Source of the DNA: Negativicutes bacterium
GTDB lineage: Bacteria; Bacillota_C; Negativicutes; Acidaminococcales; Acidaminococcaceae
DNA length: 7,918 bases
Direction: 5' to 3'
Assembly: GCA_009930275.1 (NCBI GenBank)
Contig: RZYP01000086.1
Coordinates: forward strand, 1 to 7,918
Of the stretch, positions 179-7,793 are shown piece by piece. Every line of letters begins with the position of its first letter. Position 1 is the stretch's first letter. Made by a program: the position numbers and the translations under genes. The notes under the pieces were generated by a model. That model was not told the DNA's origin, searched no databases, and saw only the letters and a list, made by a program, of their open reading frames with translations.

Positions 179-808
179 ATGAAAAAGAGATCGAAGCGAA
201 TAATTATTGGTGTTATTGGATTTCTTCTCCTAACGGTGCTTGCCTTTGCGATCTATTTCTATATGGCTTTTTCAGGTAACATCATTGAACGATTTAGCCA
301 GCAAAGGGCAATCATCAAGGTATATGAAACAAGATATGATGAAGATTTTAAGATTGTAAGTTCAAGCTACGGCTATAAGCGCAAGGAATTTTCATTCAGG
401 TTATCTTCGAAGAGTAAACCGGAAATAATATTCACATCGACTCTGGATGAAGCGGACCGTATCGATCGATATGCGGCTGCCCGCAGTATAGATTATTTAC
501 GTAAAGTTGTATCTGAAGCATTTGGTAAAGACTTTGATGATCTGCAATACAGAGTCAACATCTTTGAAGAGTACAATTCACCAGATCTTCTCGAGCGTGA
601 TGTGACCACTCGCTTAAGCCAGAACCAATATGTTGTTGATTTATCCTGGGATCCGTCCGTCCTTGATACTTTGCAGATTGATACCATTTTTAAAGACATG
701 ACACAGCGGATCTCAGGGCGTCTGGATACATCCATTGGCGGCCTGAAGATCCGCGCTGGAGTGTATGACGGAAAAGATTACTATATCACTGAGGTTGATC
801 TGAGATAA
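179..808 (+). CDS. Single-pass membrane-anchored protein of unknown function
   Basis: A 209-residue protein with a basic N-terminus (MKKRSKR) followed by one hydrophobic helix at about residues 9-29, then a mostly polar region of about 180 residues expected outside the membrane. There is no lipobox cysteine after the helix, so a membrane anchor or uncleaved signal is more likely than a lipoprotein. Just after the helix, FSGNIIERF followed by a charged helix and YDEDFKIVSSSYGYKRKEFSF resembles the general plan of YfjL-like small membrane proteins of Bacillota; this is only an impression and no catalytic motif is visible. The ATG is supported by AGAAAGGAG at 161-169, 9 bases upstream. It has its own promoter-like region and is followed by a terminator, so it is probably monocistronic and not part of the sigma-factor operon. 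Confidence is high that it is a gene, low on function. Confidence 0.85.
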   Translation: MKKRSKRIIIGVIGFLLLTVLAFAIYFYMAFSGNIIERFSQQRAIIKVYETRYDEDFKIVSSSYGYKRKEFSFRLSSKSKPEIIFTSTLDEADRIDRYAAARSIDYLRKVVSEAFGKDFDDLQYRVNIFEEYNSPDLLERDVTTRLSQNQYVVDLSWDPSVLDTLQIDTIFKDMTQRISGRLDTSIGGLKIRAGVYDGKDYYITEVDLR

Positions 809-844
809 TCATCAATGATTAGGACGGAAGGGCTAATGAATCTT

Positions 845-880
845 AAGGAACTGCCGCAAAGAGACAGGCAGTTCTTTTTT
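845..880 (+). terminator. Rho-independent terminator after the first membrane protein
   Basis: GAACTGCC (848-855) pairs perfectly with GGCAGTTC (867-874) around an 11-base loop and is followed by TTTTTT (875-880). The stem can extend outward by A-T and G-T pairs to 845. It ends the transcript of the 179-808 gene and separates it from the sigma operon. Confidence 0.9.
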
Positions 881-933
881 ATCCTGATATCCATCTTCTG
901 AACAAAAAATATAAACAAAAAATCAAAAATGAA

Positions 934-961
934 TGAACCGTTTGGTGTCGGCATTCGTATA
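934..961 (+). promoter_or_regulatory. ECF-type (sigma-W-like) promoter upstream of the sigma gene
   Basis: TGAACC at 934-939 and CGTATA at 956-961 are separated by exactly 16 bases. Bacillus ECF promoters of the sigma-W class are known to have a TGAAAC-like -35, a 16-bp spacer and a CGTA -10, so this matches with one change in the -35. Transcription would start near 967-969, just before the GGGAGGTGG ribosome binding site and the GTG at 984, giving a leader of only about 15 bases. Its position directly before an ECF sigma gene suggests autoregulation, which is inferred. Confidence 0.65.
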
Positions 962-983
962 TGTTAGTAAGGGAGGTGGTAAA

Positions 984-1475
984 GTGCTCGATGATTACAT
1001 AGAAAAACATGGAAGGCGCCTTTATGGTCTATGTCGGACACTGTGCCAAAACCCTGATGATGCCGATGATTTGTACCAGGAGACCTGGCTGAAGGTCCAT
1101 CAAAAATTTGACCACTACAACCCTGAGTATGAATTTGAAGGTTGGCTGACACGGATATGCGTTAATACCTACAAGGATCAGTTGCGAAAGAAAAAAATCA
1201 GCCTGATCTTCGACCTGTTTGACTCTCAGGAGGCGAAGGACGCAGTACTTGAAAAAGCTGCCACAGAAGAAAAAGAGGACTTTAGTGACCTTCATGCTGC
1301 GGTGAAAAAACTTCCTGAAAAACTTCGACTGACAATAGTCTTGTACTATTTCAGAGATCTCGACGTCGGTGAAACCGCAGCGATTTTAAATATTCCACCA
1401 GGTACCGTAAAGTCCAGATTGAGTAAGTCCAGACTGCTGTTGAAGGAGATGATCAACGATGAAATTGAGCTATGA
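984..1475 (+). CDS. ECF-family RNA polymerase sigma factor
   Basis: A 163-residue sigma-70-family protein of extracytoplasmic-function size that directs RNA polymerase to a small regulon. Region 2 occupies about residues 5-70: NPDDADDLYQETWLKV is the core-binding helix and FEGWLTRICVNTYKDQLRKK is the -10 recognition helix. After a linker (about 70-105), region 4 at about 108-155 has LPEKLRLTIVLYYFRDL followed by the helix-turn-helix ETAAILNIPPGTVKSRLSKSR, which reads the -35. There is no region 1.1 or 3. The start is set at GTG 984 because GGGAGGTGG (971-979) lies just upstream; an upstream in-frame ATG at 933 has no ribosome binding site and lies next to the -35 of the proposed promoter. The 3' end overlaps the next gene by 17 bases, implying translational coupling. 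The assignment to the family is firm; the signal it answers to is unknown. Confidence 0.93.
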   Translation: MLDDYIEKHGRRLYGLCRTLCQNPDDADDLYQETWLKVHQKFDHYNPEYEFEGWLTRICVNTYKDQLRKKKISLIFDLFDSQEAKDAVLEKAATEEKEDFSDLHAAVKKLPEKLRLTIVLYYFRDLDVGETAAILNIPPGTVKSRLSKSRLLLKEMINDEIEL

Positions 1476-1770
1476 TTTTGAACAATACCAGCCACCAAGA
1501 CTCACTGAACAGATGCTCAACGCTGTTTTTCAAAAACGCCGTGAAGTTCGTCGCATGTTCCTTTTTGCCGCGGCGTCCAATCTAATTCTGATCAGCCTTG
1601 CTCTTCTGGCGCTTGCGCTAGCCCCATACTCCATGATAGCCAGTGTTATATGTCTGGTGTTCCTGGGAATTTATCTGTCGGCAAGTGGAATATTGACTGT
1701 CCTGCTTACCAGAAAACTCATTGACCGTTACGGCAAAGCCTCTGCCGTACCCTTTGCACTCAATGCCTAA
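1459..1770 (+). CDS. Small two-helix membrane protein, candidate anti-sigma factor
   Basis: A 103-residue protein with a short polar N-terminus (about residues 1-32, with a basic patch KRREVRR) and two hydrophobic segments at about 33-56 and 60-84, ending in a short basic tail. Both ends are predicted to be cytoplasmic by the positive-inside rule. It starts inside the sigma gene (17-base overlap) with AAGGAG at 1443-1448, ten bases before the ATG. A membrane protein directly coupled to an ECF sigma gene is commonly its anti-sigma factor. However, it lacks the HxxxCxxC zinc anti-sigma motif, and its cytoplasmic part of about 32 residues is very short for a classical sigma-binding domain. The anti-sigma role therefore rests on position alone; it could be a co-regulated membrane subunit of the next protein. 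Confidence 0.8.
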   Translation: MKLSYDFEQYQPPRLTEQMLNAVFQKRREVRRMFLFAAASNLILISLALLALALAPYSMIASVICLVFLGIYLSASGILTVLLTRKLIDRYGKASAVPFALNA

Positions 1771-1791
1771 ATCAGAAAGGAAGATGGATAA

Positions 1792-3084
1792 ATGTATGCA
1801 GCATCTTTTTACCTAATTTTTGTCGCAGCACTGTTTCTGGTGCTCCCCATCCTCATCGGAGTCTATGTATATCGGGATGCTAACAGCCGTGGGATGAATG
1901 CAGCCCTTTGGACTTTAATTGCGGCTCTGGCCCCATCCGGTATCGGCTTGATCATCTACCTGGTGGTTAGATCAGATTATAATAGTTTTGAATGTCCCAA
2001 TTGTAAGGCCCCAATCCTTGAAGAATACGCCACTTGCCCTAAATGTGGAACGAGCTTAAAGGCTAAGTGCACCAATTGTGGTAAACCGATTGCTTCCGGT
2101 TGGCAAAACTGTGCTCATTGCGGAGAACCCATTCCTGGAGACGCAAAGATCCCTACCCTCCCAAAGCGTAAAGACAATGGTCTGGGCAAGATATTGGTGG
2201 CCGTCATTCTTATTCCTGTTCTCATCATATCCACTCTTGTTTTCGGACTTGCCAGCTTCCGCAGCGGCCATCCGACCAGCGTTGGTTCAGTTGATGGCAT
2301 GCGTATTGAGGACTTTGCAGAAAACAAGGTCATATCAGATTGGCTCAAAAGTTGCGATGCATCCGGCACAGGAATTTATGTTCTGGAATACCAGTATCCA
2401 AAAGATGATTCAAGTAATCTGAATCGATCGAACTATATCGTCTATCGAACTGGGCTTTCTAAGGATGTCAACGTGGCAGCTGTTGGTTTCCAAAATTTCT
2501 TTAGGGAATCATTGCGAATTGAATACAACGATTCTGAAATAACTGGATCAACAGATTATCATATTTACCAGGTGGACTATTCTACCACAGCAAAGGTTCA
2601 ACTTGAAGTTCTAGTGAATGGCCAGAAAGCGGATTATAAGTTAACAACATCCACAGATCCACTTCTGTTTATCGATCCAGTACCGTGGCGAAACGGCGCA
2701 GCCAATTTATATAAGCTTCGCCTGGATTATCTGGGTGATAACTCAGGAGTTAGTCGGCTGGTCAAAGAAACTGGGCTTGAATTCGCAGGGGACTATACCC
2801 TCGAGCTGAAAACTTCGGAAAAACCTTATGGTTTAAGAGTTATTTATACTGACGCGATCATGGATTTTGAAACGAATATCTACTCACCTTACGCCACAGA
2901 GCTACTTGGCTTAATCAAGAATCTGGACTATGTTGAAATCACCGATGGTGAAAGTACATTTCGGCTGACAGCAGATGAAGCTTCCCAAACTCTGGGTCAT
3001 GATGTGAAGGACTTTGGAACAGATCCATCCAAGCTTGAAGCGTATCTTAATTCAATCTACGGTGATAACCAGTTCGACCAGTAG
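1792..3084 (+). CDS. Membrane protein with double zinc ribbon and probable DUF4825 domain
   Basis: A 430-residue protein, third gene of the sigma operon, 21 bases after the second gene and preceded by AGAAAGGAAG (1774-1783). Order of parts: hydrophobic helix at about 5-27; DANSRGMNAALWTLIAAL leading into a second helix (about 36-60), a segment common in clostridial zinc-ribbon membrane proteins; two CxxC...CxxC zinc ribbons with cysteines 68/71/82/85 and 93/96/107/110; a third helix at about 133-155; then about 275 residues expected outside. In that part, residues 307-352 (LYKLRLDYLGDNSGV and later TSEKPYGLRVIY) resemble DUF4825, a domain seen in clostridial envelope proteins. The middle part (about 170-290) is not recognised. 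An odd number of helices puts ribbons and C-terminal domain on opposite faces, which would suit a signalling protein that senses outside and acts inside. Sensor or anti-sigma partner is inference from operon context. Confidence 0.85.
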   Translation: MYAASFYLIFVAALFLVLPILIGVYVYRDANSRGMNAALWTLIAALAPSGIGLIIYLVVRSDYNSFECPNCKAPILEEYATCPKCGTSLKAKCTNCGKPIASGWQNCAHCGEPIPGDAKIPTLPKRKDNGLGKILVAVILIPVLIISTLVFGLASFRSGHPTSVGSVDGMRIEDFAENKVISDWLKSCDASGTGIYVLEYQYPKDDSSNLNRSNYIVYRTGLSKDVNVAAVGFQNFFRESLRIEYNDSEITGSTDYHIYQVDYSTTAKVQLEVLVNGQKADYKLTTSTDPLLFIDPVPWRNGAANLYKLRLDYLGDNSGVSRLVKETGLEFAGDYTLELKTSEKPYGLRVIYTDAIMDFETNIYSPYATELLGLIKNLDYVEITDGESTFRLTADEASQTLGHDVKDFGTDPSKLEAYLNSIYGDNQFDQ

Positions 3085-3366: not shown

Positions 3367-3516
3367 ATGGATGTATTGATTGTTGAACCTGAAAAATCGC
3401 CGCGTATGGCCAGTATCACCGGTGATCTGAACTCTCTGCAGCAGGTTGTAGGCGGCTACATCGAAGCCGTCTATCCCTACAATGACCCGGTTGCCATCGT
3501 CTGTAATGCACAGTAA
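3367..3516 (+). pseudogene. 5' fragment of a DUF3846 gene, interrupted by the RIT element
   Basis: The first 44 codons (3367-3498) read as the N-terminal half of a DUF3846 protein, a small protein family common in integrative conjugative elements of Clostridia: MDVLIVEPEKSPRM, then the typical VGGYIEAVYPYNDPVAIV stretch. From 3499 the frame enters the 29-bp terminal repeat of the insertion and ends at TAA 3514-3516 after adding VCNAQ, giving a 49-residue truncated product. The start is supported by AAGGAG at 3352-3357, nine bases upstream. The rest of the gene lies 3.4 kb downstream at 6948-7220. Joining 3498 to 6948 gives an uninterrupted 134-residue frame, which shows directly that the insertion split one gene. 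The function of DUF3846 is not established. Confidence 0.88.
3498..3503 (+). repeat. Left copy of the CGTCTG junction direct repeat
   Basis: CGTCTG at 3498-3503 recurs in the same orientation at the right junction (6947-6952); both are followed by two differing bases and ATG. In both places it encodes the conserved Val-Cys of DUF3846. It is a candidate overlap or target duplication of the insertion, although short enough that part of the match may reflect the recombinase site itself. Confidence 0.5.
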
Positions 3517-3527
3517 TCAATAATGTA
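3499..3527 (+). repeat. Left terminal inverted repeat of the RIT element (29 bp)
   Basis: The sequence from GTCTGTAATG (3499-3508) to ATAATGTA (3520-3527) is the exact reverse complement of 6897-6925. One mismatch follows at 3528, then AG matches again. It contains GTAAT at 3503-3507 and again at 3513-3517, one helical turn apart, and a third TAAT at 3521-3524, a pattern that could be stacked recombinase-binding sites. Confidence 0.92.
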
Positions 3528-3535
3528 TAGTTGGT

Positions 3536-3634
3536 CACCTCCTACCCGTTAAACCTCCCACTATTCAATGAGAAAATTGATTTAGCCACCAATTTACTCA
3601 ACATAACAAGGTGGCTCATCAAATTTGGGAGGTG
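3536..3634 (+). promoter_or_regulatory. ritA leader hairpin that can sequester the ribosome binding site
   Basis: In the untranslated leader, AGCCACC (3584-3590) pairs with GGTGGCT (3610-3616) around a 19-base loop. The stem extends through a small bulge by AAAATTGAT (3573-3581) against ATCAAATTT (3618-3626), 8 of 9 paired. Outside this, ACCTCCCA (3553-3560) is the exact complement of TGGGAGGT (3626-3633), which is the ritA ribosome binding site. An additional CACCTCC at 3536-3542 could pair with GGAGGTG (3628-3634) as an alternative. Transcripts reading in from DUF3846 would contain both pairing strands and fold the binding site away. The pairings are visible; control of translation is inferred from known insertion-sequence strategies. 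Confidence 0.6.
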
Positions 3635-3640
3635 TATCAA

Positions 3641-4858
3641 ATGCAAAATGCAGGGATCGAGCTAAAGAGTTTATTCGAAGAGGTCGCGCAAAAACTTGAA
3701 AGATCAGGGCGCTCAAAGAGCACCATCGGTGTTTACCGCGCAACATGGAACAGACTGCTTGCTTATTCTCCGGATGGATGCTATGACAGGTTGGTTTGTA
3801 AAAAATTCCTGCTAGACAGATGCTTTGTAGATCCTGGATCTCTGACACAATGTCTTGATCGACAGATGCGAGGAGATCTGCGGCATATCAATGTACTTCA
3901 TGAGTACGTAGACCATGGAACAATTTCTCAAAGATACTCTCGCGCCAGAAGCATTGAAGACAGCTCATTGTATGAGACTTTTTTCAAAGAATATATGGCA
4001 TATTTTCACGTGCTCAATCATTCCTCGTCTTGGGAAAAAAGTACCGCTGTTGCACTGCGCCTGTTTTCCGAAATTCTGAAGCCATTGGGCATTACCAGCC
4101 CTGACGAAATTTGCTCAGATGCAGTGCTTCATTTTATTGAATTGACGAGCGATACATCAATAGCATTTAAGCGTATAAGGTATCTGCAAGTCAAAGAATA
4201 TCTACAGTGGCTTAAAAAGCAGGGCTTTATCAAAAGCGACTACTCAGAACTTTTTCCTGCGGTACACCATAAACCGGCAGCTTTGCCACGGGTATGGAGT
4301 GAAAATGACATTTCGCGAATGCTTGCTGCAATCGATACTGACAACCCGGTTGGGAAGAGAAATTACGCCATATTTCTTTTGTTATCCAGAACTGGCCTGC
4401 GCATCAGCGATGTTGTCTCTTTGGAGTTTTCAAATATCTGTTGGCGAAGAAATGTTCTGTCGATCATTCAATGCAAAACCAATCAGCCATTGACTCTTCC
4501 CATAAGCAAAGAGATCGGGCTTGCCATTATTGATTATGTGAAGAATGGCCGCCCCAAATCCGACTCGCCAAAATTGTTTTTGAGCCATCTAGCCCCCTTC
4601 CAACCATTGGCGTACCATAACAATTTAAGCAACGAATTCAGAAAATACATGCGAAGAGCAGGCATTGTTTTTAAAACAGATACTCATAATGGAGTTCATA
4701 CCCTTCGGCACTCCTTTGCCACAAATATGCTGAATGAAGGCGTTTCCTTAAAAGCAATATCCGACATTGTCGGCCATAGCAGCATTCACGTGACTTCCAC
4801 CTATTTGCGTGTAGAGACGAAGCAATTGAAGCTTTGTGCGTTGAGTGTGGAGGTATAG
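3641..4858 (+). CDS. ritA: Tyrosine recombinase, first of the RIT trio (RitA-type)
   Basis: A 405-residue site-specific tyrosine recombinase. The longer N-terminal part (about 1-215) includes a core-binding helical domain (about 110-200, YFHVLNHSSSWEKSTAVALR onward); the catalytic domain covers about 220-400. The complete catalytic set is present: Arg254 (TGLRISD), Lys279 (QCKTN), His353-x-x-Arg356 (HTLRHSFA), His379 (VGHSS) and the nucleophile Tyr388 (STYLRV). It is about 70-80 residues longer than its two partners, mostly at the N-terminus. ATG 3641 is chosen over an in-frame GTG at 3611 because GGGAGG at 3627-3632 sits 8 bases before it and the GTG lies inside a leader hairpin stem. It ends 2 bases before ritB. 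It differs clearly in sequence from RitB and RitC, so the trio is not a recent tandem duplication. The RIT role comes from context; the recombinase family is certain. Confidence 0.93.
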   Translation: MQNAGIELKSLFEEVAQKLERSGRSKSTIGVYRATWNRLLAYSPDGCYDRLVCKKFLLDRCFVDPGSLTQCLDRQMRGDLRHINVLHEYVDHGTISQRYSRARSIEDSSLYETFFKEYMAYFHVLNHSSSWEKSTAVALRLFSEILKPLGITSPDEICSDAVLHFIELTSDTSIAFKRIRYLQVKEYLQWLKKQGFIKSDYSELFPAVHHKPAALPRVWSENDISRMLAAIDTDNPVGKRNYAIFLLLSRTGLRISDVVSLEFSNICWRRNVLSIIQCKTNQPLTLPISKEIGLAIIDYVKNGRPKSDSPKLFLSHLAPFQPLAYHNNLSNEFRKYMRRAGIVFKTDTHNGVHTLRHSFATNMLNEGVSLKAISDIVGHSSIHVTSTYLRVETKQLKLCALSVEV

Positions 4859-4860
4859 CC

Positions 4861-5838
4861 ATGAAGTGTTTTGAATTTAAAAGCAGACTTGCTCCGCAGA
4901 TGGCTGCTTATCTGCAGCAACGACAAAAAAACGGTTTCAAAGTCAGGAATCACGGAATTTACATGCAGGAATTTGACCAAATGGTTCTGGAATTGGCTGA
5001 CACTGACCATATTACCAAAGGCGCTTTTGATCAGTGGGATAGCATTAAGCCATACCTGACGAACCGAACTAAAATCGCAAGGCATAACATCATCAGATCG
5101 TTTGCAAAATATATGTTTGCCCGGGATGGAATTTCTTATGTACCTGATACCAGTACATTGAAAAGCACTTCTGCGTTTTCTCCATATATTTTTACAAAGG
5201 TTGAGATTCACAGATTGATCTCTGCTTCAGACAATCTCGCGATGAGAAACAACGCCCCAGCCCGACACCTGGTTATTCCAACTGTGCTGAGAATGCTTTA
5301 TTCTTGCGGTTTCCGAATAAATGAACTTCTAGAACTAAAAATTAGGGATGTTGATTTTGAAAACGGAACCGTTATGATTCGGCATGCAAAAGGTGGCAAG
5401 GACAGGATTGTACCGATGCACGATTCGATGCTTGCCTACTTGAAAAAGTATCGGGAGCAGCTTGTCGACAAGTCAGATGATGAATGGCTTTTTAAATCGC
5501 CTTATGGCCATTACAGTAGAAACACAATCTATGAAAATTTCAGAGAGCTTCTTTTTCTCGCAGGAATTAAGCATAGAGGCCGTGGGCATGGCCCCAGAGT
5601 CCATGATTTACGCCATACATATGCGGTGCACTCATTGGAATCACAACTGACCGATGGTTACAGCCCTATGGAAATACTGCCGCGACTTGCCGCCTATATG
5701 GGGCATTGTGATTACCGTGCCACCTGTGTATATCTGCATTTAACTGCTGAGATTTTTCCTGAATTAACAAATCAAATCGAGGCTGCATACAGCACTATTA
5801 TTCCAGCATTGGGAGGTGTCCCTTATGCAGAAGACTGA
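4861..5838 (+). CDS. ritB: Tyrosine recombinase, second of the RIT trio (RitB-type)
   Basis: A 325-residue tyrosine recombinase with an N-terminal core-binding domain (about 1-105) and a catalytic domain (about 115-310). Catalytic residues visible: Arg152 (CGFRINELLEL), Lys177 (HAKGGKDRIVP), His248-x-x-Arg251 (HDLRHTYAVHS), His282 (MGHCD) and Tyr291 (CVYLHLT). The stretch between the HxxR and GH motifs (TDGYSPMEILPRLAAYMGH) is a little longer than in XerC/D, as is usual for this branch. Start at ATG 4861: GGAGG (4849-4853) is 7 bases upstream, and the ritA stop is only 2 bases before, so translation is coupled. An in-frame GTG at 4834 inside ritA is less likely. The C-terminus overlaps ritC by 14 bases. 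Expected to act with RitA and RitC on the terminal repeats; whether all three are catalytic in one complex is not known from sequence. Confidence 0.93.
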   Translation: MKCFEFKSRLAPQMAAYLQQRQKNGFKVRNHGIYMQEFDQMVLELADTDHITKGAFDQWDSIKPYLTNRTKIARHNIIRSFAKYMFARDGISYVPDTSTLKSTSAFSPYIFTKVEIHRLISASDNLAMRNNAPARHLVIPTVLRMLYSCGFRINELLELKIRDVDFENGTVMIRHAKGGKDRIVPMHDSMLAYLKKYREQLVDKSDDEWLFKSPYGHYSRNTIYENFRELLFLAGIKHRGRGHGPRVHDLRHTYAVHSLESQLTDGYSPMEILPRLAAYMGHCDYRATCVYLHLTAEIFPELTNQIEAAYSTIIPALGGVPYAED

Positions 5839-6838
5839 TTTTACAAAAGCGCTAACTTCATATTTCTCGGATTTTCTTCCGACAACAAGAGGATTAAGTA
5901 AAAATACGATTATGTCGTACCGAGATGTATTCAAGCTTCTATTGGAATATATGCATGGTGTAAAGCGAATTGATGCAGATCAAATTGAACTGCGATTACT
6001 TGACCGCGAGACCGTACTCGGATTTCTCAATTGGCTAGAAACAAATCGCAATGTCTCGATATCCACACGCAACCACCGTTTGGCATCGCTCCAAGCTTTT
6101 TTCAGGTACTCACAATACAGATATCCGGATCAAATAGCGGCTTGCCAAGACATTATTGAGATTAAACCCAAAAAATGTGCTAAACCCTTGGTTTCATATT
6201 TGGACAGACAACAATTAGAAGTGCTGTTTTCCAAACCAAACACACATATCGCCGAAGGTCGTCGTGATTTGACGATAATGGCAGTGCTTTACGACAGCGG
6301 TGCCAGAGTGCAAGAACTCATTGATTTGAACGTAAATAGCATAAGACTCGAGCATCCTTCCAGAATTGTGCTAACCGGAAAAGGAAACAAAACCAGACAA
6401 GTTCCATTGATGAAAAACACCTGTACGTTGCTAGACCATTACCTGAAGGAATTCCATCGCACATCTACTGGTTCTTCGCCGTTGTTCTCAAACAGAAGAA
6501 ATTGTCGTCTCAGTCGTTCTGGAATTACATACATTTTAAAAAAGTATGCAGATATGGCCCAACCACTTGTCTTGTCCAAAGATATTTCGCCACATATTTT
6601 ACGGCATTCGAAAGCTATGCATTTACTTCAGGCCGACGTTAATCTCATATACATTCGGGACTTTCTCGGACACGCCAATATAACAACAACCGAAGTGTAC
6701 GCTCGCGCAGATGATGAAATGAAGCGAAAAGTCTTTGAAAAGGCAGTACCAAATTATACGACCAAGGAAATGATGCCCTGGGAAGAAGATGAGAGCTTAA
6801 TGAATTGGCTGGAGAAACTTGGCACAAAACAGTTCTGA
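5825..6838 (+). CDS. ritC: Tyrosine recombinase, third of the RIT trio (RitC-type)
   Basis: A 337-residue tyrosine recombinase, the most XerC/D-like of the three. The N-terminal SAM-like core-binding domain covers about 5-110 (LSKNTIMSYRDVFKLLLEYM, then STRNHRLASLQAFFRY) and the catalytic domain about 125-305. Catalytic residues: Arg161 (SGARVQEL), Lys186 (TGKGNKTRQVP), His257-x-x-Arg260 (HILRHSKAMHLL), His283 (LGHANI) and Tyr292 (EVYARAD). An acidic C-terminal tail (MMPWEEDESLMNWLEKLG) follows the active site and may mediate subunit contacts. ATG 5825 has GGGAGG at 5811-5816, 8 bases upstream, and overlaps the ritB end by 14 bases; the GTG at 5816 lies in the binding site itself. The 11 bases TTGGGAGGTGT before this gene are identical to those before ritA. 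The stop is followed by a hairpin and the right terminal repeat. Confidence 0.93.
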   Translation: MQKTDFTKALTSYFSDFLPTTRGLSKNTIMSYRDVFKLLLEYMHGVKRIDADQIELRLLDRETVLGFLNWLETNRNVSISTRNHRLASLQAFFRYSQYRYPDQIAACQDIIEIKPKKCAKPLVSYLDRQQLEVLFSKPNTHIAEGRRDLTIMAVLYDSGARVQELIDLNVNSIRLEHPSRIVLTGKGNKTRQVPLMKNTCTLLDHYLKEFHRTSTGSSPLFSNRRNCRLSRSGITYILKKYADMAQPLVLSKDISPHILRHSKAMHLLQADVNLIYIRDFLGHANITTTEVYARADDEMKRKVFEKAVPNYTTKEMMPWEEDESLMNWLEKLGTKQF

Positions 6839-6846
6839 TTATGTGC

Positions 6847-6895
6847 AGCAAGCAGAGGCGAAACCCACTTATGACAGGTGTTTCGCTTCTTTGCT
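6847..6895 (+). terminator. Hairpin after ritC, weak or T-poor terminator
   Basis: AGAGGCGAAAC (6854-6864) pairs with GTTTCGCTTCT (6880-6890) over 11 positions with one G-T pair, and after a 2-base bulge AGCAA (6847-6851) pairs with TTGCT (6891-6895). It starts 8 bases after the ritC stop and ends just before the right terminal repeat. There is no proper T-run, so it may terminate poorly, protect the transcript 3' end, or act as a structural element at the end of the RIT unit. Confidence 0.5.
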
Positions 6896-6896
6896 C

Positions 6897-6925
6897 TACA
6901 TTATTGATTACTGTGCATTACAGAC
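6897..6925 (-). repeat. Right terminal inverted repeat of the RIT element (29 bp)
   Basis: Exact reverse complement of 3499-3527, from TACATTAT (6897-6904) to CATTACAGAC (6916-6925). Its outer ten bases also form the outer part of the left arm of the palindrome at 6916-6957. Unlike the left repeat, it has no stop codon in the frame of the downstream DUF3846 fragment. Confidence 0.92.
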
Positions 6926-6957
6926 ATTATGCATAGCTCCGCATAACGTCTGCCATG
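6916..6957. repeat. Imperfect palindrome across the right RIT junction, candidate recombinase core site
   Basis: CATTACAGACATTATGC (6916-6932) and GCATAACGTCTGCCATG (6941-6957) are 17-base arms matching in 14 positions as reverse complements, separated by an 8-base spacer ATAGCTCC. Tyrosine recombinases are known to bind inverted arms flanking a 6-8 bp crossover region, so the geometry fits a core site. The left arm belongs to the terminal repeat and the far half of the right arm to DUF3846 codons. The structure is visible; use by the Rit proteins is inferred. Confidence 0.55.
6947..6952 (+). repeat. Right copy of the CGTCTG junction direct repeat
   Basis: CGTCTG at 6947-6952 matches 3498-3503 in the same orientation, and ATG follows two bases later in both. 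The DUF3846 frame resumes here with Val-Cys-His-Glu-Glu-Gly-Lys, so this marks where target sequence begins again on the right side. Confidence 0.5.
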
Positions 6958-7220
6958 AAGAAGGCAAGCTCATCGGCCTCCCGCTTAACCGAAAACTTGA
7001 GGACTACGACATCATCGCCGGAACCTTTATCGTCTGCGGGCTGGGCGAAGAGGATTTTGATTCCTTGACGCCTGAACTGGCAGAAAAGTACCGCGAGAAA
7101 TTTGCTGATCCTGAGATCTTCATGAAGATGGGCAACCGCATCGTCGCCATACCTATCAAACCCAAGGACGAGCTGCATGTGGCCAAACCGAAACAAAAGT
7201 CCACGGAACCGGAGCTCTAA
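6948..7220 (+). pseudogene. 3' fragment of the interrupted DUF3846 gene
   Basis: The last 90 codons of the DUF3846 gene: VCHEEGKLIGLPLNR, then YDIIAGTFIVCGLGEEDFDSL, EKYREKFADPEIFMKMGNRIVAIP and a lysine-rich tail. These are the typical C-terminal blocks of the family, missing from the 5' fragment at 3367. In frame with 44 upstream codons it would restore a 134-residue protein. The reading frame is open backward through the right terminal repeat to a TTG at 6819 inside ritC, with GGAG at 6811-6814, so a chimeric protein with 43 foreign residues could in principle be made, but this start is weak. The next gene, pcfB, begins 93 bases later. Probably non-functional unless the RIT element excises precisely. 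Confidence 0.85.
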
Positions 7221-7313: not shown

Positions 7314-7793
7314 ATGCAGGAAGAAGTGGAAAACAGGACCGTTGCCCTGGCTGTCAGTACCACCCGAATGACCGGACGTGTTCTGAAGGCCGCACTCATC
7401 AAGGTTTTGGCTGAAATGAAGAAGAGCCGGGACAGTCCGCCACAGATCCCCCACGGCAAGCAGACCGTGAAGGAGCTTATCGGTCAGAATGCCGGTGTCT
7501 CCAACATTGAGATCACAGATAAAAACATCAAATCCTTTGAGCAGGTCGCCAGAAAGTACGGCGTAGACTATGCACTCAAGAAGGACACCACCGGAGAGAA
7601 ACCCAAATATCTGGTCTTCTTCAAAGCCCGGGATGCTGACGCCCTCACCGCTGCCTTCACAGAATATACGGCGAAGGTCCTCAAGAAGGACAAGCAACCT
7701 TCCATTTTGGAGCAGCTTGCCAAATTCAAGGCTCTGGTTCAGACCAAGGTCATGGACCGGGTGAAAAACAAAGACAAGGAGCTGACGCGATGA
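7314..7793 (+). CDS. pcfB: PcfB-family (DUF3801) conjugation accessory protein
   Basis: A 159-residue soluble, basic protein. The start MQEEVENRTVALAVSTTRMTG, then LKAALIKVLAEMKKS, the block HGKQTVKELIGQNAGVSNIEIT and KYGVDYALKKD leading to YLVFFKARDADALTAAFTEY, are the features of the PcfB/DUF3801 family. In the enterococcal plasmid pCF10, PcfB is known as a conjugation factor that helps dock the relaxosome with the coupling protein; in Tn1549-like elements its homologue sits immediately before the VirD4-type gene, as here. ATG 7314 has AGAGGAGG at 7298-7305, 8 bases upstream. The stop overlaps the next start by 4 bases (ATGA), implying coupling. The preceding 93-base spacer is AT-rich and carries AATTTAC (7221-7227) and GTAAATT (7274-7280) as an inverted repeat; it may hold a promoter, but none is clear. 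Family assignment is quite sure, mechanism in this element inferred. Confidence 0.85.
   Translation: MQEEVENRTVALAVSTTRMTGRVLKAALIKVLAEMKKSRDSPPQIPHGKQTVKELIGQNAGVSNIEITDKNIKSFEQVARKYGVDYALKKDTTGEKPKYLVFFKARDADALTAAFTEYTAKVLKKDKQPSILEQLAKFKALVQTKVMDRVKNKDKELTR

Follow-up and report, generated by a model that had tools for sequence, protein, structure and literature searches.

The stretch of DNA analysed here, 7,918 nt of contig RZYP01000086.1 from a Negativicutes bacterium and referred to below as the window, carries a gene of the DUF3846 family that is split by a complete recombinase-in-trio (RIT) element. The insertion site lies just upstream of a gene of the DUF3801/PcfB type. In a Pfam search, PF12957 (DUF3846) was found both in the 5' fragment (3367-3513, profile positions 1-48, E 5e-15) and in the 3' fragment (6924-7217, profile positions 44-102, E 9e-17), and the region between the two fragments encodes three Phage_integrase proteins. 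The features of the split gene and of the element are as follows.

3367..3503, forward strand: DUF3846 5' fragment, 45 native codons and 2 bases, stop of this frame at 3514-3516, PF12957 1-48
3498..3503, forward strand: border 6-mer CGTCTG on the ritA side (bare border)
3504..3513, forward strand: tip half-site TAATGCACAG of the left end
3521..3530, forward strand: second half-site TAATGTATAG of the left end, 17 bp from the tip
3641..4858, forward strand: ritA, tyrosine recombinase of 405 aa, PF00589, catalytic motifs, 30% to Cupriavidus RitA
4861..5838, forward strand: ritB, tyrosine recombinase of 325 aa, PF00589, catalytic motifs, 37% to Cupriavidus RitB
5825..6838, forward strand: ritC, tyrosine recombinase of 337 aa, PF00589, catalytic motifs, 45% to Cupriavidus RitC
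6894..6903, reverse strand: second half-site of the right end, TAATGTAGAG on the reverse strand
6911..6920, reverse strand: tip half-site TAATGCACAG of the right end
6921..6926, forward strand: inner spacer 6-mer CAGACA of the putative unused core
6927..6946, no strand assigned: double core, 20-bp head-to-head half-site pair TTATGCATAGCTCCGCATAA, with a like layout in relatives
6947..6952, forward strand: border 6-mer CGTCTG on the ritC side
6953..7220, forward strand: DUF3846 3' fragment, codons 47 on, PF12957 44-102, 88/88 residues identical to intact P0001

The junction consists of the 6-bp sequence CGTCTG, which spans codon 45 together with the final base of codon 44 and the first two bases of codon 46 and is present at each border (3498-3503 and 6947-6952), the net insertion being 3504-6952. 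The fragments, given as 44 and 90 codons in the sequence-only reading, are corrected accordingly: 45 native codons and 2 bases remain on the left, and the native sequence resumes at 6953, to the right of the element. The DUF3846 gene is cut short after codon 46. A protein search with the C-terminal fragment matched 690 proteins, of which the 120 listed were used for comparison. Among these, 118 align with both fragments in linear order, and the origin of the fragments from two different DUF3846 paralogues is therefore rejected. The two others, P0002 and P0098, match the C-terminal fragment only; P0002 is a second occurrence of the window's insertion and, apart from the start codon, departs from the window's frame at a single internal residue. 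The intact homologue P0022 of Proteiniclasticum sp. QWL-01 is identical to the window at 44/45 residues of the N-terminal part and 86/88 of the C-terminal part, and intact P0001 at 43/45 and 88/88. Given this near-identity to intact genes, the insertion in the window looks recent.

The element proper (3504-6946) measures 3,443 bp, exhibits the order ritA-ritB-ritC, and fits the length of approximately 3.5 kb given for RITs in the literature. Its ends exhibit a perfect 29-bp terminal inverted repeat (3499-3527 and 6897-6925), which is overlapped at the right end by a palindrome (6921-6952); beyond the right tip, the order is CAGACA, the 20-mer TTATGCATAGCTCCGCATAA, and CGTCTG. The ritA and ritB genes are separated by 2 bases with the ATG start used here, and ritB and ritC overlap by 14 bases. 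RitA, RitB, and RitC each exhibit the HxxRH, GH...Y, and first Arg motifs, and they pair one-to-one and in order with the trio of a Cupriavidus taiwanensis plasmid. The frame list contains no fourth gene-sized sense-strand frame between the inverted repeats that could correspond to srap, ginD, or TnpC. Thus, domains, homologues, and ends bear out the sequence-only reading in that a complete RIT splits a DUF3846 gene beside a conjugation-type gene. That reading overlooked the insertion position common to relatives and the extra palindromic piece at the right end.

Insertions at the same DUF3846 codon

A RitA profile scan of genome contigs yielded 49 loci (L numbers denote the RIT loci or scaffolds compared with the window RIT, W). 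The two closest, L024 from a Clostridia metagenome-assembled genome (49%) and L025 from Gemmiger formicilis MCC627 (46%), both lie in DUF3846 genes at the same codon as in the window, L024 being in the opposite orientation. In the L024 genome, PF12957 is split into 1-50 and 43-102 on a single contig; in L025/L105, it is split into 1-48 and 43-103 over two contigs, with the break inside ritB. L153 and L183, which come from faecal scaffolds deposited as phage, are both reversed in DUF3846 and exhibit one border each. The same codon is consequently occupied in all five examinable loci of the clade, in forward orientation in W and L025/L105 and reversed in L024, L153, and L183. The 20-bp double core is found on the 3' side of DUF3846 in 5/5 insertions, whichever way the RIT is oriented. 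This recurrence of the window's layout in relatives indicates more than chance.

RitA identity is 43-49% between the window and the other four clade loci, and 53-100% among those four. A RitC tree places W, L024, and L105 in one group with a support of 100/98, from a bootstrap that had not settled. A DUF3846 profile made from close homologues matched only W, L024, L104, and L105 among 43 RIT sequences, some of which are devoid of flanks; among 17 further loci, it matched L153 and an intact gene away from the unrelated RIT L168.

Uninterrupted alleles are available for the sister insertion. Five intact Gemmiger-type alleles, from 3 of 35 genomes of the genus, run from the N-terminal to the C-terminal half without a gap at the DNA level, four with CGTCTG at the site and one with CGTTTG, and a sixth is present on scaffold L182. 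A search with the Gemmiger C-half DNA in 247 genomes of the family had returned no intact allele before the later genus search found them. The empty site, which the sequence-only reading had proposed as a check, is thus provided by intact homologues at the protein level and, for the Gemmiger insertion, at the DNA level; for the allele of the window itself, neither 391 genomes nor the plasmid set yielded a near-identical DNA empty site.

Regarding further copies of the clade, RitA profile searches returned G002 alone in 247 genomes and G001 alone in overlapping sets of 245, 295, and 391 genomes. Scans of IMG/VR gave 0, 2, and 2 loci, the first pair being other RITs and the second weak matches (23-32%). 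For 16 of the 77 RitA homologues (P0121-P0197), including the closest one (P0121, 90% identical), the longest contig measures 3,400-3,500 bp, which is about the size of the element. Contigs of this size would be expected if assemblies were interrupted at the ends of RITs that are circular or present in several copies.

Possible route of insertion and alternatives

From these comparisons, the window probably contains a recently inserted RIT whose clade uses a single fixed site in the DUF3846 genes of conjugative elements as its target. The sequences directly show the three recombinase genes, the layout of the ends, CGTCTG at both borders, the occupation of one codon in five loci by RITs in either orientation, and the existence of uninterrupted alleles; the circle and core mechanism that follows is inferred from them.

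We propose that the element circularises and that its joined ends form two inverted cores, each comprising a half-site, a 6-bp spacer, and a half-site, placed back to back. The circle junction would measure 86 bp and read half-site, 7 bp, half-site, 6 bp, half-site, half-site, 6 bp, half-site, 7 bp, half-site. The Rit proteins would pair one of the cores with the matching 6-bp site of DUF3846 and exchange strands there. The choice of the core would set the orientation, and the unused core would always stay on the 3' side of the gene. If either core is usable, both orientations should occur with the double core 3' of the target, as is seen in the five insertions. An inversion in place, by recombination of the bare border with the unused core, predicts an identical end state, and border-by-border recombination would be expected to remove the element cleanly. 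The junction would contain six half-sites, i.e. three kinds present twice, which would suit three recombinases; the assignment of one kind of half-site to each Rit enzyme is a guess drawn from the number three. In the XerC/XerD-dif system, two arms of approximately 11 bp, of the CATAA-N6-TTATG kind, surround a 6-bp spacer. The dif site is a single core, whereas the proposed RIT junction would comprise two cores and two outer half-sites.

The shared position could also reflect descent from one ancestral insertion inherited with the host element, since W and L025 differ in RitA (46% identity) and RitC (57%) by about as much as their DUF3846 sequences do. This is very unlikely, as both orientations occur, the near-identity of the window fragments to intact genes indicates a young insertion, and the interrupted Gemmiger allele has close intact counterparts. 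A more serious candidate, although we rate it as somewhat less likely than not, is that both orientations arose when an already inserted RIT was inverted by recombination of its bare border with the unused core. In L153 and L025/L105, the RITs are 99.9-100% identical (1,688 and 1,524 bp), lie in opposite orientations between related flanks, and have the double core in place, which is what an inversion would leave. Nevertheless, their flanks are 96.2% identical over 1,625 bp and their border 6-mers are TGTCTG and CGTCTG, respectively; with this difference of about 4% and the distinct border 6-mer, they do not represent two states of a single allele on either side of an inversion, and L024 and L183 represent separate, older cases.

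The position of the 20-bp palindrome outside the terminal inverted repeat could suggest that it belongs to the target and that the element landed beside it. This explanation is highly improbable and was rejected, because the 118 listed homologues mentioned above run through the site and the six intact Gemmiger-type alleles are devoid of the palindrome at the DNA level. It is just as improbable that the element belongs to the SE, GInt, or Tn554 group rather than to the RITs, despite several tyrosine recombinases or relatives and site-specific insertion in these groups, and a 6-bp footprint in SEs (passages covered of PMC10214605). According to the same passages, SEs resemble the window RIT in their site specificity, inverted repeats, 6-bp spacer at the joined ends, and 6-bp border footprints, but their genes are intA, tfp, intB, and srap and their joint comprises a single core, whereas the window RIT exhibits three catalytic recombinases and two proposed inverted cores. 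GInts likewise exhibit several recombinase genes and insert site-specifically, also into diverse homologues of one target gene, ssb; however, they contain four essential genes, and the text searched of PMC5385486 mentions no palindrome or inverted repeat. Tn554, in part according to the covered passages of PMC10214605, shares more than one tyrosine recombinase, site specificity, and a 6-bp footprint with the window RIT, and differs by its accessory gene TnpC and by the lack of a recombinase trio. In the window, all three proteins carry catalytic motifs, the match to the Cupriavidus trio is one-to-one and ordered (30/37/45%), and no further gene-sized sense-strand frame is present between the repeats, which argues against all three groups.

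End plan and targets of other RITs

The end plan comprises two half-sites of 10 bp at a distance of 17 bp, a 6-bp spacer, and the 20-bp head-to-head pair, the latter normally on one side only. A pattern in which no fewer than 4 of the 6 spacer bases had to match detected the double core in 25 of 39 RIT loci or parts, compared with an average of 0.3 in shuffles and 2 matches in 166,203 bp elsewhere in the same loci. The set of 39 holds near-duplicates (L027 and L139 on the same contig, four Flavobacterium copies, and L104 and L105 as halves of one element) as well as contigs with little flank. The offset of the second half-site did not enter into the pattern; when 14 offsets were compared, 17 was the best in 24/25 RITs, a set that corresponds to the 25 with a double core minus L139 and L103 plus L074 and L144 (spacers 3/6). 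The plan is clear in four of ten later plasmid RITs with annotated ritA and ritC (L158, L159, L161, and L166). Eight other later loci, several of them truncated and with estimated ritA starts, show it clearly in L153 and L155, partially in L168 and L169, and not in L152, L154, L156, and L165.

Borders were compared in 25 RITs, and the bare end could be placed in 19 with a match of at least 18/24, a threshold set after looking; the placement is less good in L027, L139, L102, L140, L143, and L151. The two border 6-mers agree at 5-6 of 6 positions in 16 of the 19 placed RITs, and fully in 11. The mismatches suggest that a spacer may travel with the element to its next target, as the passages covered of PMC10214605 describe for SEs. 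In L155, L168, L103, L034, and L029, inverted copies of similar host sequence are observed on both sides of the RIT, and in L155, L168, and L103 the 20-bp double core is likewise two-sided; L103 and L029 are short contigs, in which two-sided flanks may be assembly effects.

With regard to the targets of other RITs, the IstB_IS21 profile ends at position 104 and resumes at 106 in both L137 and L138b, the pieces having been searched apart, and the RITs of L137 and L138, which share this split position, are 50% identical in RitC. L138 holds a second, different RIT approximately 3 kb away. In L146, IstB_IS21 ends at 159 and resumes at 160, and in L149, Transposase_mut ends at 166 and resumes at 167. 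The motifs split at these IstB_IS21 and Transposase_mut sites are presumably Walker A, Walker B, and the catalytic Asp. PemK is split with abutting coordinates in L148, the second piece being below the curated cut-off. One-sided family matches were obtained for L141 (NUDIX), L144 (Mu-transpos_C_2), L136 (TetR_N, just below the cut-off), L073 and L102 (DNA_methylase), L138a (rve), L027 (Toprim), L151 (DNA_pol_A), and L074 (MutS_I); the family search gave no match for the flanking pieces of L101, L031, and L140.

Genome G785 contains near-identical RITs (RitC 99%) in an istB gene (L146) and in a NUDIX gene (L141). The two targets have letters in common around GACGAA/GATGAA, and the double core, which lies on opposite sides of the two RITs, exhibits the same relation to these shared letters. 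L027 and L097, which are related RITs (RitC 55%), lie at the start of topB-like genes, by eye at the same IIAEKPSV codons; Toprim and Topoisom_bac were confirmed for L027 only. The Flavobacterium RITs L032, L035, and L037 are located inside the last codons of a small gene, which we take to be histone-H1-like, and the RIT end reads as a new C-terminus (...ENQKK, stop). In L098, the border near 3743-3761 resembles the T-arm of a tRNA and adjoins tRNA-Ser genes at 3414-3502 and 3528-3617. A general rule of homing to the best-conserved protein motif was also considered and rejected: by eye, it fits some other RITs, namely the IstB_IS21 splits of L137, L138b, and L146 and the Transposase_mut split of L149, and it fails for DUF3846.

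These results raise the possibility, which we put forward tentatively and rate at slightly under even, that RITs in general are target-specific transposons with an 86-bp junction of six half-sites, two inverted cores, and one kind of half-site per recombinase, which would insert in either orientation or flip. Each lineage would have its own target, namely DUF3846 here, and IstB motifs, the start of topB, or others elsewhere. Several points weigh against the main interpretation given above, namely a clade with one fixed site and a circle with two inverted cores. The evidence is comparative, movement of the element not having been observed, and the double-core pattern was drawn after looking at the loci. 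The plan is absent in 14/39 RIT loci or parts, several of which are without flanks; among the plasmid RITs, it is partial in L157 and L163 and absent in L160, L162, L164, and L167. In L136, L138a, and L144, the two border 6-mers do not match each other, and the same holds for L027, whose bare end is less well placed. L155, L168, and L103 exhibit a double core or target halves on both sides, which lies outside the model. Within the clade itself, L025/L105 is spread over two contigs, and L153 and L183 each exhibit a single border. Finally, the insertion site ranks 33-47 among 130 five-residue DUF3846 windows in 21 sequences; as it is not among the best conserved, homing to a conserved motif is not claimed.

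Relation to published RITs and genomic neighbourhood

In the passages covered of PMC3414803, RITs are described as a trio of overlapping or adjacent tyrosine recombinase genes, of approximately 3.5 kb, with a 28-29 bp inverted repeat overlapped by a palindrome at one end. The clade of the window shares this trio order, length, repeat, and one-end palindrome. RIT insertions into a transposase gene and into radC of an integrative and conjugative element (ICE) are mentioned in the same passages, and nesting in a conjugative element is therefore not new. Compared with these RITs, the new features are the fixed target site, the half-site reading, and a palindrome whose position, next to ritA or next to ritC, varies with the orientation. 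The passages covered of PMC10214605 state that no transposition of RITs has been reproduced and list target specificity and empty sites as not tested, and those of PMC8138268 attribute two core-binding domains to RitA. No RIT target rule or half-site plan was found in the literature searched, which does not cover the primary RIT papers and does not imply absence from print. Thus, earlier work already covers RITs with their inverted repeat and palindrome, as well as the presence of one in an ICE, whereas the reason why the element sits where it does, i.e. a fixed target, is new.

As a target-specific clade whose end plan can be read, these RITs merit the attention of specialists. RITs occur in several phyla and are little studied, and the pattern of the clade hints at how they choose and enter their targets. 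The fixed target, the uninterrupted alleles, both orientations, and the repeated half-site plan provide concrete substrates for first assays. If true, the reading of six half-sites with one kind per enzyme would answer why three recombinases are needed, a need called difficult to understand in the covered passages of PMC3414803. The element would be a small one exploiting a gene of conjugative elements, which could carry it along as they spread, with one of their own genes truncated.

The gene that follows the split DUF3846 gene is the neighbour related to conjugation.

7314..7793, forward strand: DUF3801 gene of the PcfB type, PF12687, E 8e-43

In plasmids, three of the four matches to the DUF3801 stretch are annotated as PcfB family protein. 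The sequence-only reading had called the host a conjugative element; the adjoining DUF3801/PcfB gene agrees with this label, which depends on that single neighbour, the relaxase, the coupling protein, and the ends of the host element lying outside the window. Upstream of the split gene, the region 179-3084 encodes a protein that matches YfjL_N below the threshold, a factor of the sigma-70 family (933-1475), and a zinc-ribbon/DUF4825 protein (1792-3084); a short ORF (1459-1770) overlaps the end of the sigma-70 factor gene.

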